Shown here: positions 2,466-59,451 of the stretch, piece by piece
Numbering within the stretch: the first letter of the stretch is position 1
Layout of the letters: each line of letters starts with the position of its first letter
DNA from: Oligoflexia bacterium
GTDB taxonomy: Bacteria > Bdellovibrionota > Bacteriovoracia > Bacteriovoracales > Bacteriovoracaceae
Assembly: GCA_015231955.1 (NCBI GenBank)
Contig: JADGAN010000033.1
Span: 1 to 59,451 of the forward strand
DNA: 59,451 nt
Direction of reading: 5' to 3'
The notes under the pieces: model-generated
What the model was told of the DNA's origin: nothing
Seen by the model: the letters and a program-made list of their open reading frames with translations, nothing else
Databases searched by the model: none
Position numbers and translations under genes: made by a program

Positions 2466-3158
2466 CTATCTTCCTTGAAAATATTTATAAAATTTTCGAT
2501 GAATATTTTGAATTGACTTTGGAGGGTTCGATATACCTTTCTGTCCTGCTAAGTAATCAAAATATTTTATTCTCATCGTTACCGATTCATAACTAACACC
2601 TAGCAAGTGTGCAATATCACCTATTAAGTTATCCCACTCACAGTCACCATCAAGATCACGCCTGATTTTCATCGCAAGAAATACAATCAGATCACTCTTT
2701 TCTTCCCAAGGCTTTCCTACGTTCTCACGATCACTAAAGGAATCAAAAACATCAATATCTTCCTCTACGAATGAATTATTTTTTATAGTTAGTTTTTGAC
2801 TACCCATCACTCCATTGCTGCTATTATTTTTTTCCTTCACTTCATTAAGCTCTTGCACCCGATTAAGCAATTCTTCATTAATTTTTTGAAGACGATCAAC
2901 TTGTTCTTTGAAGAGTTGTTGGGTTACTGGCTTTCTAAAATGATTATTTCCACTGCTCTCTTCCTTGTCCTGATTTTTGAGCAAACAAGGAATAAAGTTA
3001 TTTTTTTCTTTCCATTCTCGCAAATAAGACAAAATAGTACTCATGTTCCCATGGCCAATGATCTTTCGAACATTTCTCATTGATGGCCGTTGGCCATCCT
3101 TTACCAATGAGTCACAAGCCTTGGCCACTTGCTCGTAATCAACTAGTCGTTTCGACAT
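2466..3158 (-). CDS. KfrA-type DNA-binding protein
   Basis: A 230-residue protein whose first 55 residues match the KfrA N-terminal DNA-binding domain: YEQVAKACDSLVKDGQRPS, then a helix-turn-helix ending in TILSYLREWK. The middle (about 85-115) is predicted coiled coil (KEQVDRLQKINEELLNRVQ). The C-terminal 80 residues resemble a second small helical domain. Such proteins are autoregulated plasmid-maintenance factors. Three 12-base direct repeats lie directly upstream at 3181-3216 and are a likely operator. A second KfrA-type gene sits 700 bases away in the opposite direction. Confidence 0.75.
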   Translation of the reverse strand: MSKRLVDYEQVAKACDSLVKDGQRPSMRNVRKIIGHGNMSTILSYLREWKEKNNFIPCLLKNQDKEESSGNNHFRKPVTQQLFKEQVDRLQKINEELLNRVQELNEVKEKNNSSNGVMGSQKLTIKNNSFVEEDIDVFDSFSDRENVGKPWEEKSDLIVFLAMKIRRDLDGDCEWDNLIGDIAHLLGVSYESVTMRIKYFDYLAGQKGISNPPKSIQNIHRKFYKYFQGR

Positions 3159-3836: not shown

Positions 3837-3854
3837 GAAGTGAGGTTAGCAAAA

Positions 3855-4403
3855 ATGGGAGCACCAGGCATAACCAAAGAACAGGTTTTTGAAGCGGCAG
3901 ATAAGCTAATTTCAAGTGGATTATCTATCACTGTTGAGGCGATACGGTCTGAAATTGGTAGCGGCAGCTATACTACCATTATGAAACATCTAGAGGCCTG
4001 GCGAGAACAAGCATCTGTTCAATCAAAGATCCCCAATATTCCAACGGCCGTTAATAAACATTTTGAAAAGATCTGGATGATTTCTTATCAAGAAGCAGAA
4101 CGAGTTTTTTTACAAGATAGAGAGACCCTTCATATAGAAAAGGAAACGCTACTAGAAGAAAAGTCTGGTCTCATCACCGAAATAGAAAAAATTGAGACCG
4201 AACTCAATAGGGCCAAGTTGAGGATAAAAGATCTAGAAGAGAGCGAAAGGAAACTTAATAAAGAACTTAACAATGCTCGCACTCAACTCGAAGTTACTGA
4301 GGCCAGAAGAAAAGAGTCAGTGGTGATGGCCGAAAGATTTGAAAATCAAATCACTAATCTTCTTCAATCGGGTCTTTTCTCTGCAAAGAAAACAGAAGAG
4401 TAA
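3855..4403 (+). CDS. KfrA-type DNA-binding coiled-coil protein
   Basis: A 182-residue protein. Residues 1-55 form a KfrA N-terminal domain (ITKEQVFEAADKLISSG, then SYTTIMKHLEAWREQ). The rest is one long coiled coil (about 85-170, rich in Glu, Lys and Leu heptads), as in KfrA proteins that form filaments and aid plasmid stability. I chose ATG 3855 because GTGAGG lies nine bases before it; a GTG at 3840 lacks a ribosome site. Two related palindromes sit just upstream. The HU gene follows 52 bases later, and KfrA and HU-like proteins could both organise plasmid DNA. Confidence 0.8.
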   Translation: MGAPGITKEQVFEAADKLISSGLSITVEAIRSEIGSGSYTTIMKHLEAWREQASVQSKIPNIPTAVNKHFEKIWMISYQEAERVFLQDRETLHIEKETLLEEKSGLITEIEKIETELNRAKLRIKDLEESERKLNKELNNARTQLEVTEARRKESVVMAERFENQITNLLQSGLFSAKKTEE

Positions 4404-21024: not shown

Positions 21025-21639
21025 TCACAATCCCCTGTCCCCAATTTTTTCTCTCATAAATGTTACCAGTAGAGAATAGTCTCCTTGATCAGCACTTCTT
21101 AATGCCTTTATGTATCGACTGCGGCGCTCCTGAGGGTCTTCTTTTAAAGAGGCCATCCAGCTAGTGATCATTTGGCCATGCTTTTTTTGCAAATATTCAA
21201 CATAAATGCGAGAGATACGGCCATTTCCATTAGGATATGGGTGAATGCTAACCAACCGATGGTGAAGTTCGGCCCATATCTCATCCCAAGGCATACTCTG
21301 GAGCTGTATCCAAACCTTCAAATCCTCTAGCAAATTTTTCAATTCTGGCCCAATGTTGTACGGTCGAGTACGAGATAAGTTTACCTCACTCTTGCGGTAT
21401 TTTCCCGCCCATGTCCAAACATCTCCAAATAGTTGCTTGTGCAATTTATTTAAAAATTCCAGTGATAAAAAATTGTCACTGCGGGAATGGTTTAACCAAT
21501 CAAGACCACGCTGGATATTTTCATCCTCTAGCTCATCTAGTTCACCCATAGTAGTGACCGAAGGATATTTTAGTCCCTCCAATTGCTCAGGGTCTAGTGG
21601 AGTATTGCCATCATCATTTCTAAACCGAACACTACTCAT
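21025..21639 (-). CDS. Fic-family protein, mobile mystery protein B type
   Basis: A 204-residue Fic-domain protein from ATG 21639. The catalytic motif HPYPNGNGRISR near 140-151 keeps the His and the GNGR loop; the acidic residue usually seen before G-N is Asn. The N-terminus (NDDGNTPLDPEQLEGL, then TTMGELDELE) and LFGDVWTWAGKYR match the mobile mystery protein B family. Fic enzymes transfer AMP or other groups to proteins. Its start overlaps the stop of the Xre partner (21632), the standard arrangement of the A/B pair. Confidence 0.85.
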   Translation of the reverse strand: MSSVRFRNDDGNTPLDPEQLEGLKYPSVTTMGELDELEDENIQRGLDWLNHSRSDNFLSLEFLNKLHKQLFGDVWTWAGKYRKSEVNLSRTRPYNIGPELKNLLEDLKVWIQLQSMPWDEIWAELHHRLVSIHPYPNGNGRISRIYVEYLQKKHGQMITSWMASLKEDPQERRSRYIKALRSADQGDYSLLVTFMREKIGDRGL

Positions 21640-22093
21640 TCTTATCCCATAGGTATTTAGAGTATATTTTTTCTTCAATTAGCTCTGGTATTCTTTCAGA
21701 TACCGTTGCTTGCACCTTTTGATTTTCCAGCACCATCTGCGTTTCGGCCTGTTCCATTGTTTTTAACACTTTTAACTTGGCCTGCTTATAAATAAGGTCT
21801 TCTAATTTTTCTCTAGGGATGAAGGCATAGACCAAATCGCAATTCATGGCATCCGCTACTCTCCTCAGCTTATTTATAGTAAGAGTGCCATCCACTTCTT
21901 GTCGTTCTGACTCACTGACAGTTGATTGGGCTAAATCTAGTCTATCCGCTAGTTGCGTTACGCTCATTCCTAGCGCTACCCTAATATATTTGATCCATGA
22001 TCTAACCCCTCGGGTCTTTTCTCTCAATTCTCGAAGCTCTTCCAGCTTTCTGGAAGTTTGTGTCCTCGTTTTTTTAAGTATTTCCTTTTTCAT
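21632..22093 (-). CDS. Xre-family mobile mystery protein A
   Basis: A 153-residue protein from ATG 22093. The helix-turn-helix covers WIKYIRVALGMSVTQLADRL and SQSTVSESER-like residues (AQSTVSESERQEVDG), followed by DAMNCDLVYAFIP, the typical family continuation. It is the usual partner of the Fic protein and overlaps it by eight bases. It probably represses the pair and may neutralise the Fic protein. The C-terminal helix is longer than the DNA-binding part needs. Confidence 0.8.
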   Translation of the reverse strand: MKKEILKKTRTQTSRKLEELRELREKTRGVRSWIKYIRVALGMSVTQLADRLDLAQSTVSESERQEVDGTLTINKLRRVADAMNCDLVYAFIPREKLEDLIYKQAKLKVLKTMEQAETQMVLENQKVQATVSERIPELIEEKIYSKYLWDKNE

Positions 22094-22210
22094 TATTATA
22101 TAATCGCATATATGCAATAAAATACCAATCAATTATTGTATATATCCGATAAAAACACTAAGAAAAATAGCATAAATACGAAATTCGCGCAAGCAACTAG
22201 GGCTCAAAAA

Positions 22211-23398: not shown

Positions 23399-24811
23399 CT
23401 ATCCCCTTTGGGTTTGCTTTTGTCTGCTATATGCCAAGTTGATATTATCTAAATTAACTCTCTTCCCGGCCCGCAACAGCTCTACTCCTAAGCTCAAATA
23501 ACGCTCGATAAAATCCTCTGTCTTTAAAAATCGAACTGATTCCCGATCCTTCTTGTATTGGTCGATGGCCTGGATCTCTTCTTGGGTGTATTCCTTTTTT
23601 AAAAAGTCACAATCGGCCGTAAGGCCTCTTATGTGATTCTTTAATCTTTTGTTTAAATCTCTTTGATTGTTGGAAAAATCGGACGCTTCCGCAGGAAAAA
23701 AAGGACGGAAGTTGGAAATTTTGGACGTTTTGTTGGAAAAAAAAGTCGTTTCGACTTGATGAGTAGTAAAATTGCTATTATCCCTTAAATCTGTCCCCGC
23801 ATTAAACTGAACATTTGATCGATCAACCTGTGCTACCGCTGCAACTGGTTTAGTTATGGCCACTTCCACCACAGTGGTTGCTTCTTCTGTAAAATAGCGT
23901 TTGCTCTCCTCTTTTTCTTGCAGGTGTTTCCACTCCGCAAATCTAAAGTTGTAAATTTTAAGATCTGACTGCAAATCCTTCTCCCATAGGGCCGGAATGG
24001 ATTTAATTGGCTTCTTATCCAGTGCCACTGAAGTATCACCTAGGAACTTTATAATCAGAGGAGCATCGCTAATATCGCGCCCATGCCGCTTTAGCACGCG
24101 CTCAAGATCGCTTAGTGTATTTGTATTGCTTTGGGCCTTGTCCGTTGGCAGAACCGCTTCTTTGTGCTGCTTGGTGGCCACATGTCCTTGCTCTGCTCTC
24201 TTTTGATCTTGATCCAGCAATATGCATGGAGTGATCGTGCATGGATCTTGAGTCTGAAACTCTGCAAATTCACAAAGGACAAGGTTATGCTCCATCAACA
24301 AATGGAGTGAATTCTTGACCGTTCTTGTTGATGATTTTATAACTTTGGCTAAATAGTTAAGTTGCAGTGAAAGTGGCTTTCTCTTCTGTGGTGGCCAGCA
24401 GAACTTAAAGATCAAAAACATGTAGAGAGAAAATGCATTAGGGGTGAGGGCCGCACTCTGAACTACATGGATCAGGTGTAGTGGGAGTTTGGTGAAGTCT
24501 TGCTTGGGGCGCTCAATGTGTAATTCGATCTCTAATGGCCCTCTGGCATTGTGTTTATATGTGACGATACCATCGTTCTGTAAGCACTCCAATGATCTTA
24601 GTAGTGGGCGCTTGGAGAGTGTAAAATAGCTACAGGCAGTTGATAGGGTCGCAAATTCGCAATAGGTTTTTCCCTTGAAATTATGAATGCGGGCCATAAT
24701 TTGAAAAAGAACGCTCAGGGTTGTGGAGTCATATTTATAATAGAAATTTTTAAAGATGAAATTTGAGATAGGGATCCAGCTTTTTGAGATTGCTTTTTCA
24801 ATTTTAGACAT
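23399..24811 (-). CDS. Putative plasmid replication initiator with winged helices
   Basis: A 470-residue protein. The N-terminal 200 residues look like two consecutive winged-helix domains, each with a helix-turn-helix and hairpin (residues about 25-85, TYCEFATLSTACSYFTLSKR; about 115-180, LNYLAKVIKSSTRTVKNSLH). The rest is low-complexity and ends in a charged helical segment. Two tandem winged helices beside parA and a large palindrome at 25026-25069 fit a Rep-type initiator, but I cannot name a Rep family. It heads a short operon with the membrane-anchored protein. Confidence 0.45.
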   Translation of the reverse strand: MSKIEKAISKSWIPISNFIFKNFYYKYDSTTLSVLFQIMARIHNFKGKTYCEFATLSTACSYFTLSKRPLLRSLECLQNDGIVTYKHNARGPLEIELHIERPKQDFTKLPLHLIHVVQSAALTPNAFSLYMFLIFKFCWPPQKRKPLSLQLNYLAKVIKSSTRTVKNSLHLLMEHNLVLCEFAEFQTQDPCTITPCILLDQDQKRAEQGHVATKQHKEAVLPTDKAQSNTNTLSDLERVLKRHGRDISDAPLIIKFLGDTSVALDKKPIKSIPALWEKDLQSDLKIYNFRFAEWKHLQEKEESKRYFTEEATTVVEVAITKPVAAVAQVDRSNVQFNAGTDLRDNSNFTTHQVETTFFSNKTSKISNFRPFFPAEASDFSNNQRDLNKRLKNHIRGLTADCDFLKKEYTQEEIQAIDQYKKDRESVRFLKTEDFIERYLSLGVELLRAGKRVNLDNINLAYSRQKQTQRG

Positions 24812-25025: not shown

Positions 25026-25069
25026 TTACCCCCTAATATCTCAGGGGCCCCTAAGATATTAGGGGGTAA
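25026..25069. other. 44-bp near-perfect palindrome, candidate replication origin element
   Basis: The 16-bp arms (TTACCCCCTAATATCT and complement) are joined by AGGGG/CCCCT, with one mismatch in 22 pairs. It lies in the roughly 500-base gene-free stretch (24812-25311) between the putative rep gene and the partition genes. The words CCCCTAA recur in the repeat array at 25709-25941. Confidence 0.75.
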
Positions 25070-25093: not shown

Positions 25094-25142
25094 ATGATCC
25101 CCTTGCTTTTAATGAGAGGATCATCTTTTATTAGGGGATCAT
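25094..25142. repeat. Inverted ATGATCCCCT repeats beside the palindrome
   Basis: ATGATCCCCT (25094-25103) and AGGGGATCAT (25133-25142) are perfect complements, with weaker GGATCAT and TGATCCC copies between and after them. Together with the 44-bp palindrome they make this spacer a likely origin or control region. Confidence 0.6.
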
Positions 25143-25311
25143 GAAAAGTGATCCCATAACTTTTTATGCTCACCGTAGATACAGCAAATTTTTTTCACTC
25201 AATCCAATTTCAGGCAAAACTCCTCCTGCACTAGCAACGGTTTCTAATGCTATTAGTAGAGTTGTTTTATGTTGTTTGTTATTGGGAAGAAGATTTCCTA
25301 TTTTAACTACT

Positions 25312-26097
25312 TTAATTTTTCAGAGAGCTATCTCTTTTAAGTAATGTGTAGACAACCTCTTGCCTGTTTTTGTTATTTTTTCTTGAGTAAAAATGTATAT
25401 AGTTTTTGTCAACTAACCCGCTTCGTGAAGTGTAGAAGTAGGTGTCGGAGATCAAAAAGTCGCTTCGTCTAATAATGGTCTCAACGTTCTCACGGTTTTT
25501 TGAGAATGTTTTTACAGTGTGTAGAAATTTAATCTCATTTTTATTCAACGCTAGGAGATCATCGATTTCTATTTTTGTGGCCATCTGCTTATGGTGATCC
25601 TCATTCCTGCCATTTTCTGTTTCGACCACTCCATTATCAGAGATGGCTACCTCTGGAAGTTTTTGATGTAACCTACTGCTATCTCCCACTTCTTTATGGT
25701 CAATCTCGCTTTCATTAGGGGATAATATTTTGTTATCCCCTAATGAAAGATCAGGGGATGATGTTTTGTTGGGGGATAATTGTTGGTTATCCCATGATGT
25801 TTCGTTAGGGGATAACAATTTATCGGGGGATAATGTAATGTTATCCTCTAACGTTTTGTCAGGGGATAATGTTTTATTATCCCCTGGTTTTTCATTAGGG
25901 GACAATAAATTATTATCCCCTAATGAAAGATTAGGGGATAGTAATGGTGAGGTGAGAGGTGAACTGTTCTTACTATCGGAGTTCCTCTCACCAGAGTCAT
26001 GAAAGATAACGATATCACTATAAGGGGTCACCTTGGGCCTATTGGGATCCTTCATCTTAAACTTTGGAGTGCTCAATCGATCTGATGTGGACGGCAT
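25312..26097 (-). CDS. Partition partner protein with LSPN/LGDN repeats
   Basis: A 261-residue protein starting at 26097, 25 bases after parA, with AAGGTGA as ribosome site. The N-terminal third is disordered. Residues about 48-130 consist of tetrapeptides LSPN/LSPD and LGDN alternating irregularly, a direct result of an inverted-repeat array in the DNA (25709-25941). The C-terminal 90 residues (LALNKNEIKFLHTVKTFSK to a KNNKNRQEVVYTLLK strand) look like a small winged-helix or MarR-like DNA-binding domain. Position after parA suggests the centromere-binding partner, but there is no ParB nuclease-type domain. Confidence 0.6.
   Translation of the reverse strand: MPSTSDRLSTPKFKMKDPNRPKVTPYSDIVIFHDSGERNSDSKNSSPLTSPLLSPNLSLGDNNLLSPNEKPGDNKTLSPDKTLEDNITLSPDKLLSPNETSWDNQQLSPNKTSSPDLSLGDNKILSPNESEIDHKEVGDSSRLHQKLPEVAISDNGVVETENGRNEDHHKQMATKIEIDDLLALNKNEIKFLHTVKTFSKNRENVETIIRRSDFLISDTYFYTSRSGLVDKNYIHFYSRKNNKNRQEVVYTLLKRDSSLKN
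25709..25941. repeat. Array of about 13 inverted/direct copies of a 12-bp motif inside a coding region
   Basis: About 13 copies of ATTAGGGGATAA or its complement occupy 233 bases. The first two form a 41-bp palindrome with 17-bp arms (25709-25725 and 25733-25749). Spacing keeps the reading frame: the complement gives LSPN and the direct copy gives LGDN. It is a candidate centromere (parS-like) or iteron array within the partition gene. Confidence 0.85.
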
Positions 26098-26122: not shown

Positions 26123-27256
26123 TTATTGCGACTTTTCCATACTGCTGGGAGGATATTTGAGCCCCATAATCTCTCTTGCCAGCAAATCAAAATCTTCGCG
26201 TGCAGGAGAACTCTTATGTTCTGTAAAAATCGACTGAGAGTCGTTAATGCGTCTGGAGAGGTGCTCATTCTCCCGAATAAAACTATCGAGTATGAAGTTC
26301 TTAAAAAGTTCATGGGTATTCAACCTCTTCAAATACTCATCGGACGATTTTTTACTGGCGTTGTGGCGATTCAAGAAGATATTGATCTCAGTGCTGGTTC
26401 TACTTCGAAAGTGGGTCGTGATATCTTTTATCCATAGCAGCGTCTTGGCCGCACCATTTAATGAGAATTCATTGGGGTTAACGGGTAACACTACTCGAGT
26501 GCATGCCATCAAAATGGATGAGTTTAAGAGGCCAAGGGCCGGTGAGCAATCAAAGATAATATAGTCGTAGTTGGTCTTGATCTTCTTCACCATCTCCATA
26601 ATTAAAAGGTCAAGGCGACCGGGGTTGGAGTGGATATACTTCTCTAGTGCAGAGTTATCTATATTGCTAGGTATAAGATCGAGGTTAGGAGTTATATGCA
26701 CAATGGAGTCGTTAATATCGATATCACCCTTGATGATGTCGATTAAGCAGTAGAGCTGCCCCTCGTTGATTCCAAAGGCGGTAGTGGTATTGGCCTGCTG
26801 ATCGGTATCGATCACCAGTACGCGGGCCCCCAGCTGATTAAACCTAATGGCTAATGTATGAGAGCTGGTACTCTTGCCCACTCCACCTTTTGTGCAGATA
26901 AAACTGATAATTTCCTCGGCGTAGCGATGTCCATAGATCTGCAGCAGTCTCCTCACCTCGGCGGAGGGAATGAAGGTTCTACTCCCTATCTTAGTTGCCT
27001 TAATGCCGTTGCTCTTTAATATGTTGTGAACGTTGGCGAGAGTTGTCCCTAGGATGGAGCAGAGATCCGAAGGTGGAATCATCAGCTCCTCTTTTAAAAC
27101 ATTACCATCGTAGTTTTTCTTATTCTCTTTGTTGATATCAAAAAAGCCGTCCTCCAGATCGAGTAGAAAATCGATCTTCTTTCGATTTGTCGGCGAAACT
27201 ACAAAAGACTTCCCCTCTCTTTTTTCCAAGTTTGAATCTGTGTCGACCGGTTGCAT
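26123..27256 (-). CDS. parA: ParA-type partition ATPase with N-terminal HTH
   Basis: A 377-residue Walker-type ATPase. Residues about 55-110 form a DNA-binding helix-turn-helix (MIPPSDLCSILGTTLANVHN), as in type Ia ParA proteins that also repress their operon. The deviant Walker A is CTKGGVGKST near 130, Walker A' is VIDTDQQANTT near 157 and Walker B is YIIFDCSPALG near 243. It drives plasmid positioning together with a centromere-binding partner, likely encoded just downstream at 25312-26097. Inverted repeats upstream (27288-27383) are likely operators for its own repression. Confidence 0.9.
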   Translation of the reverse strand: MQPVDTDSNLEKREGKSFVVSPTNRKKIDFLLDLEDGFFDINKENKKNYDGNVLKEELMIPPSDLCSILGTTLANVHNILKSNGIKATKIGSRTFIPSAEVRRLLQIYGHRYAEEIISFICTKGGVGKSTSSHTLAIRFNQLGARVLVIDTDQQANTTTAFGINEGQLYCLIDIIKGDIDINDSIVHITPNLDLIPSNIDNSALEKYIHSNPGRLDLLIMEMVKKIKTNYDYIIFDCSPALGLLNSSILMACTRVVLPVNPNEFSLNGAAKTLLWIKDITTHFRSRTSTEINIFLNRHNASKKSSDEYLKRLNTHELFKNFILDSFIRENEHLSRRINDSQSIFTEHKSSPAREDFDLLAREIMGLKYPPSSMEKSQ

Positions 27257-59324: not shown

Positions 59325-59451
59325 AGGCATTTTCTCAATCTCATTTTTTTCCTCGCCACTATTTTGCTTCTCAAATATCTTCCAAAAAACAATAGGGGTG
59401 GCATGTTCATTTTTCTTAATCCTTCCTCCTAATTCACTGACCTGCAGAAAA
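59325..59451. repeat. Terminal redundancy: exact copy of bases 1-127
   Basis: The last 127 bases are identical to the first 127. A gene (ardC) reads across the join in one frame without a gap, so this is an assembly overlap on a circular molecule of 59,324 bp and not a biological repeat. An overlap of exactly 127 is typical of a k-mer-based assembly. Confidence 0.95.

Follow-up and report, generated by a model that had tools for sequence, protein, structure and literature searches.

An intragenic array of DNA motifs in the gene of a ParA partner: a candidate plasmid centromere near a probable replication origin in Bdellovibrionota

Known plasmid centromeres usually lie outside genes, as a first-pass annotation of the DNA described here had remarked, but intragenic cis-acting sites are well established for replication origins, which are found inside the gene of the binding protein in phage lambda O (PMC4488673), in pSK41 and pT181 (PMC5703833), and in repC (PMC3155836). 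In pSK41 and related RepA_N plasmids, the sites for the encoded protein occupy the central part of the gene that encodes it and are themselves translated as a linker (PMC5703833). Likewise, ori-lambda consists of four 19-bp iterons inside the gene of its binding protein (PMC4488673). In repABC plasmids, the genes for a ParA-like protein, its partner, and Rep are grouped, and repC contains oriV (PMC3155836). In the parCAB system of the Myxococcus plasmid pMF1, ParA has an unusual partner whose DNA-binding sites are short iterons (PMC3235114). In type I ParABS systems, such as those of F and P1, and in type Ib systems, a Walker-type ParA is followed by a site-binding partner, for which the present locus has a candidate. 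Centromere searches normally target noncoding DNA; a parS site is located inside spo0J in Bacillus subtilis. Here, we describe an array of DNA motifs inside the gene of a ParA partner on a plasmid from a relative of predatory bacteria in the phylum Bdellovibrionota, together with related arrays in other plasmids.

The window, which is the whole stretch of 59,451 bp that was analyzed, has identical ends (127 bp, positions 1–127 and 59325–59451) and is therefore a complete circular plasmid of ~59,324 bp. A TrwC-type relaxase and an apparent transfer gene cluster suggest that the plasmid is conjugative. It also encodes two KfrA-like DNA-binding proteins (2466–3158 and 3840–4403) and a Fic/DOC-domain gene beside an HTH_3 gene (21025–22132), possibly a toxin–antitoxin-like pair. 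The locus of interest has the order parA, partner, a 500-bp noncoding stretch, and a rep-like gene. The product of parA (26123–27256, minus strand) is a Walker-type ParA ATPase, with matches over the cut-off to AAA_31 (144 bits) and CbiA (58 bits); an N-terminal match to HTH_17, a type Ia feature, is weak at 21.1 bits and falls under the cut-off of 27.

The partner gene (25312–26097, minus strand, 261 amino acids) follows parA after a gap of 25 bp and encodes a conserved N-terminal segment, an array-encoded linker, and a C-terminal segment that is probably a winged helix–turn–helix (wHTH). The N-terminal segment (MPSTSD...NRPKVTPYSDIV, 25996–26097, minus strand) is shared with a relative, L047, and is the candidate segment for contact with ParA. 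The C-terminal DNA-binding candidate (25333–25575, minus strand) is 28.8% identical to the C-terminus of the L046 partner (E=6e-8), and this likeness, together with a weak DnaD_N match of the L046 C-terminus, suggests a winged HTH in the window partner. A search of solved structures returned wHTH regulators only, with weak matches; an AlphaFold model of the domain from one sequence had a pLDDT of 51.6, too poor for use. The partner matches no family in Pfam at E 0.1 or better and none in NCBIfam, and its one PHROG match (E 0.09) is of unknown function. No ParB/Spo0J, ParG, omega, ParR, or TubR domain is recognized in it by Pfam or NCBIfam, which counts against a centromere reading. As the partner of ParA, the protein is a reasonable candidate to bind the array.

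The array itself (25709–25941, 233 bp) is a candidate binding array, for a centromere and possibly part of an origin. Thirteen near-identical 12-bp motifs in both orientations had been reported in the gene after parA, and our search confirms them: ATTAGGGGATAA occurs 13 times with 0–2 mismatches at 25714–25941. The motifs start at 25714+, 25733-, 25750+, 25768+, 25787-, 25804+, 25822+, 25841-, 25858+, 25877-, 25894+, 25913-, and 25930+, eight in plus and five in minus orientation on an exact 18-bp lattice. Across the whole window, 25 matches are found against 8.3 expected, a number that none of 100 shuffles reached. The core is nearly invariant, with GGA at positions 7–9 in 13 of 13 copies. 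The first motif pair forms, as annotated, a palindrome (25709–25749) with perfect 17-bp arms and a 7-bp gap. The claim that orientation sets the peptide also holds: the gene lies on the minus strand, and plus sites encode LSPN, LSPD, or SSPD while minus sites encode LGDN, PGDN, LEDN, or SWDN. In a pattern search of the rest of the genome, the exact motif occurs only as scattered single copies, and a mobile palindromic element was rejected because of this isolation.

Synonymous-codon shuffles (n=300) that preserve the protein and the codon counts of the gene separate constraint on the DNA from that on the peptide. Counted as repeated 9-mer pairs, the partner gene contains 46 direct pairs (7.3 expected, maximum 21) and 60 reverse-complement pairs (4.6 expected, maximum 19), and neither value is reached in any of the 300 shuffles. 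Under the same shuffling, parA has no excess of 9-mer pairs, and the rep-like gene has no excess of direct pairs and a borderline excess of reverse-complement pairs (15/300 shuffles). The serines of the motif are encoded by TCC in 8 of 8 cases, a codon that makes up 14% of plasmid serine codons (product 1.9e-7). The reverse-complement excess in the array is beyond what peptide-level selection explains, and the window array is constrained at the DNA level. The proposal that selection acts on the DNA, with the peptide repeat as a by-product, thus gains support from the orientation test, from noncoding copies of the motif, and from homologues that carry one motif in three frames. Evolution appears to have kept a DNA signal rather than a protein at this place, since other plasmids have different signals at the same position.

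Among 129 genomes of the order, only L047 (G059:C181) has a clear relative of the partner, and no close homologues were found in plasmids or in viral contigs. The N-terminus of the L047 partner is conserved with that of the window (MPSTSDSLNT..KF..KDPNRPKVTPYSDIV), and the visible end of its ParA, PAREDFDLLAREIMGLKYPPSS, is the same as in the window. Between the two loci, the partner N-terminus, the C-terminal end of ParA, and the rep-like gene are conserved, whereas the array and the C-terminal domain of the partner differ; such joint change would follow if specificity resided in the array and the DNA-binding domain as one unit. The L047 array motif, AACCCNTTC, recurs in three frames with mostly a 20-bp period: AACCCCTTC is matched 17 times, for the most part at 20-bp intervals, which places successive copies in frames 1, 0, and 2, where they encode EPVQ, NPF, and TPS. 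In L047, the repeated unit is plainly DNA and not peptide. L046 (ParA identity 41%) carries CACCCCTTG in both orientations, and its motif shares a C-rich CCCCT-like core with those of L047 and the window. Relatedness extends to the rep-like proteins, with Rep N-termini that are 82% identical between L046 and L047; given related cores and related rep-like proteins, binding of the array by Rep is possible. In L046 (6900–7090) and in L074, upstream of a rep fragment, the noncoding stretch before rep resembles a decayed partner array end and the linker that follows it (ATYDFKLKMFSL and then a stop, against TYDSNFKMFSF), with the in-frame stop at the same place in the two genomes.

The same shuffle test for direct or reverse-complement repeats was applied to the partners that follow related ParA proteins. 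Bdellovibrionota, Piscirickettsia, and one Rickettsiales plasmid together have at least 17 ParA-partner genes with plasmid-specific repeats, which typically precede a winged-HTH domain. Significant DNA repeats were found in the window, L046, L047, L052, L053/L020, L063/L029, L077, L079 (Bandiella, Rickettsiales), L081 and L085 (Piscirickettsia), L082 (Bdellovibrio pBdHAGR4), L023, L024, L089, and L091–L094. Arrays thus recur with different motifs in homologous genes. Units of 11 bp, about one turn of DNA, run clearly through all three frames in L053, L063, L082, and L085; one motif is read in two frames in L052, and L023, L024, L091, and L092 show a mixture of spacing classes modulo 3. Many of the arrays consist of 11-bp or 20-bp units that cycle through three frames, and their peptide repeats are by-products. 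L079 is the exception, with 20 of 21 copies in one frame, for which simple tandem duplication is possible. Several long partners carry an array on both sides of the wHTH coding region. No array was found in L078, L080, and L083, and that of L084 is marginal; short Bdellovibrio-type partners have none. In two surveys of ParA loci, every array belonged to a wHTH-type partner, and no ParB-fold partner had one. The N-termini of array partners are enriched for R[PAVT][WYHD] (10 of 18, 1.2 expected), in favor of the centromere reading, whereas the R-P-W/Y motif is absent from L052, L053, L063, L023, and L024, which counts against it. Elsewhere in the phylum, a related ParA is accompanied by a short partner, often with an MPxIK start and KRRP, and by no array (L095, L097–L099, L103–L115).

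The long partners belong to a single family that has a wHTH and a conserved C-terminal region, and some have weak matches to phage replication-initiation PHROGs (L082 E=1.6e-4). Compared with the rep-like gene, this family reaches an hhalign probability of only 7%, in the wHTH region alone, and a search of viral contigs with a single long-partner protein found no relatives. No other recognized initiator is present on pBdHAGR4 and on several Piscirickettsia plasmids that carry the array. The authors of a study of Piscirickettsia plasmids found neither an origin nor iterons in those they examined and, for pPSLF89-3, no initiator (PMC6963756). The partner gene of pPSLF89-3, L121, contains an array. 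Five Piscirickettsia alleles of one partner carry 11, 17, 20, 21, and 23 motifs. The first array of L121 differs from that of L081 by 3 replacement changes and 0 synonymous ones over 74 aligned codons, against 27 synonymous differences in 370 codons of the other regions. This is the opposite of a peptide kept with scrambled codons, the pattern that would speak against selection on the DNA, although homogenization between repeats could contribute. One Piscirickettsia locus (L117, on a 31,951-bp plasmid) has its array-bearing ParA operon among many phage head and tail genes and may be a phage-plasmid, and pBdHAGR4 carries an RT-like ORF, a small helper-like gene, and a variable-domain-like target gene (L087, 8115–10850), possibly a diversity-generating retroelement.

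In the window, the motif extends beyond the partner gene. Four more core matches lie in the noncoding stretch (25026–25034, 25061–25069, 25095–25103, and 25133–25141), the first two of them in a near-perfect palindrome of 44 bp with two motif cores (ATTAGGGGGTAA, 25026–25069). The noncoding copies at 25095–25160 read TGATCCCCT (25095), ATTAGGGGATCA (25130), and GTTATGGGATCA (25149). Three noncoding sites score 14.6–14.8 bits against 15.7–20.1 for the array sites. The par system had been suggested to be self-contained; array and partner do share one gene, but the system is not strictly so, as further copies lie in the noncoding DNA that precedes the rep-like gene. This rep-like gene (23399–24811, minus strand, 470 amino acids) is 47.5% identical to the one that follows the partner with the array in L047 and is a probable replication initiator, judged by synteny and HTH-like segments. 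It matches no Pfam family over the cut-off, and the RepA_N domain matches neither this gene nor the partner. Since the array is beside the rep-like gene and sits at the minimum of the GC skew, its position is near the replication origin, with which it may overlap.

From these sequence comparisons, we infer which protein binds the array, that it contacts ParA, and that the array serves segregation. The 233-bp stretch would be a set of binding sites inside a gene, maintained by DNA-level selection, which the partner protein probably binds within its own gene through its C-terminal winged HTH. The N-terminal segment of the partner would then present the nucleoprotein complex to ParA, and the array would be the centromere of the plasmid. 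A single gene would thereby provide the site, the domain that binds it, and the segment that contacts ParA, and the peptide encoded by the array would be a disordered linker. That the array is bound by the partner's own wHTH and acts as a centromere for ParA, at or near the origin, is on balance our preferred reading, held with limited confidence. The separate rep-like gene of the window plasmid favors such a segregation role for the partner array. Thirteen sites (11 to 23 in the Piscirickettsia alleles) in mixed orientation are also more like centromere arrays than replication iterons.

A centromere and an origin are compatible and not mutually exclusive, and there is a sizeable, if lesser, possibility that the array consists of replication iterons, as an intragenic origin bound by the rep-like protein in the window or by the partner as initiator in the long relatives. 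This origin reading is kept in play by the skew minimum and by the noncoding copies that immediately precede the rep-like gene. The detrended cumulative GC skew is lowest at 25,717, at the array, but with the raw skew flat from 24.1 to 25.75 kb its resolution is ~1–2 kb, too coarse to separate the array, the noncoding stretch, and rep; in pBdHAGR4, the minimum is ~2 kb off the array. The skew of the window is negative at 20–24 kb and positive at 28–32 kb, and because the main genes are on the minus strand in both intervals, the sign change across 24–28 kb is more than a coding-strand effect; a centromere is likewise expected near an origin. The surroundings offer one DnaA-box-like site, at 24700, and an AT content of 58–66% around the array with 74% at 25301–25400; neither a clear DnaA box nor a peak of AT content adjoins the array, which counts against iterons. 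Thirteen copies in mixed orientation are unusual for iterons, and the window array stands in the partner gene despite a separate rep-like gene. For the long-partner relatives, whose plasmids have no other recognized initiator, including Piscirickettsia plasmids without a reported origin or iterons (PMC6963756), the array could be origin iterons, or both; their weak initiation PHROG matches and the intragenic origins with a dispensable linker already established (PMC5703833, PMC4488673) agree with this. It is improbable that the array acts mainly as an operator or silencer by which the partner regulates the par–rep operon, being neither centromere nor origin. The array does lie inside the operon with copies before the rep-like gene, and ParB of pMF1 binds iterons and represses its own operon (PMC3235114), but thirteen to twenty sites in a coding region exceed the needs of repression, for which promoters are the usual place. 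More improbable still is a protein feature, a disordered low-complexity linker grown by tandem duplication, with the DNA similarity as a residue of recent duplication. Long in-frame direct repeats in the Piscirickettsia and Bandiella arrays (45 and 33 bp), copy numbers that vary between alleles, and homogenization, which could also freeze synonymous sites, would fit it; the window sites, however, encode different peptides in their two orientations, other arrays cycle through three frames, copies occur in noncoding DNA, and the L081 and L121 arrays lack synonymous differences.

If such arrays are centromeres or origins, the missing cis-sites of many plasmids, for example Piscirickettsia pPSLF89-3, would be located, a plasmid-specific incompatibility marker would be at hand, and strong selection on DNA would override the reading frame within a gene. 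With these arrays, it could also be tested cleanly whether replication and segregation can share a site. More tentatively, and in our view less likely than not, a widespread class of plasmids may use one ParA-partner coding sequence as both a binding array and its binder, serving as centromere and origin, with a single protein as initiator and ParA partner in the long-partner plasmids. Such a protein would explain plasmids reported without a rep gene, origin, or iterons.

The locus thus differs from each of the systems introduced above. In contrast to type I ParABS and type Ib systems, the present partner has no ParB domain and its candidate centromere is coding. In pMF1, the two main iteron sets flank the par genes, upstream and downstream, and further sets are spread over the plasmid. 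In repABC plasmids, the partner RepB is ParB-like and no iterons are found in repC, whereas the array here is in the partner gene. The lambda O initiator stands outside any ParA operon and has four sites, compared with 13 mixed-orientation sites here; the window partner has no O-like PHROG match, and weak matches to O-like or initiator PHROGs are confined to the long relatives. The open-access papers searched did not describe an intragenic array or centromere in a ParA partner. The closest analogue in design is pSK41, in which the array-encoded peptide is a dispensable linker (PMC5703833), but the gene of the RepA_N plasmids is rep and not a ParA partner, the DNA-binding domain is N-terminal there, and the RepA_N domain has no counterpart here.
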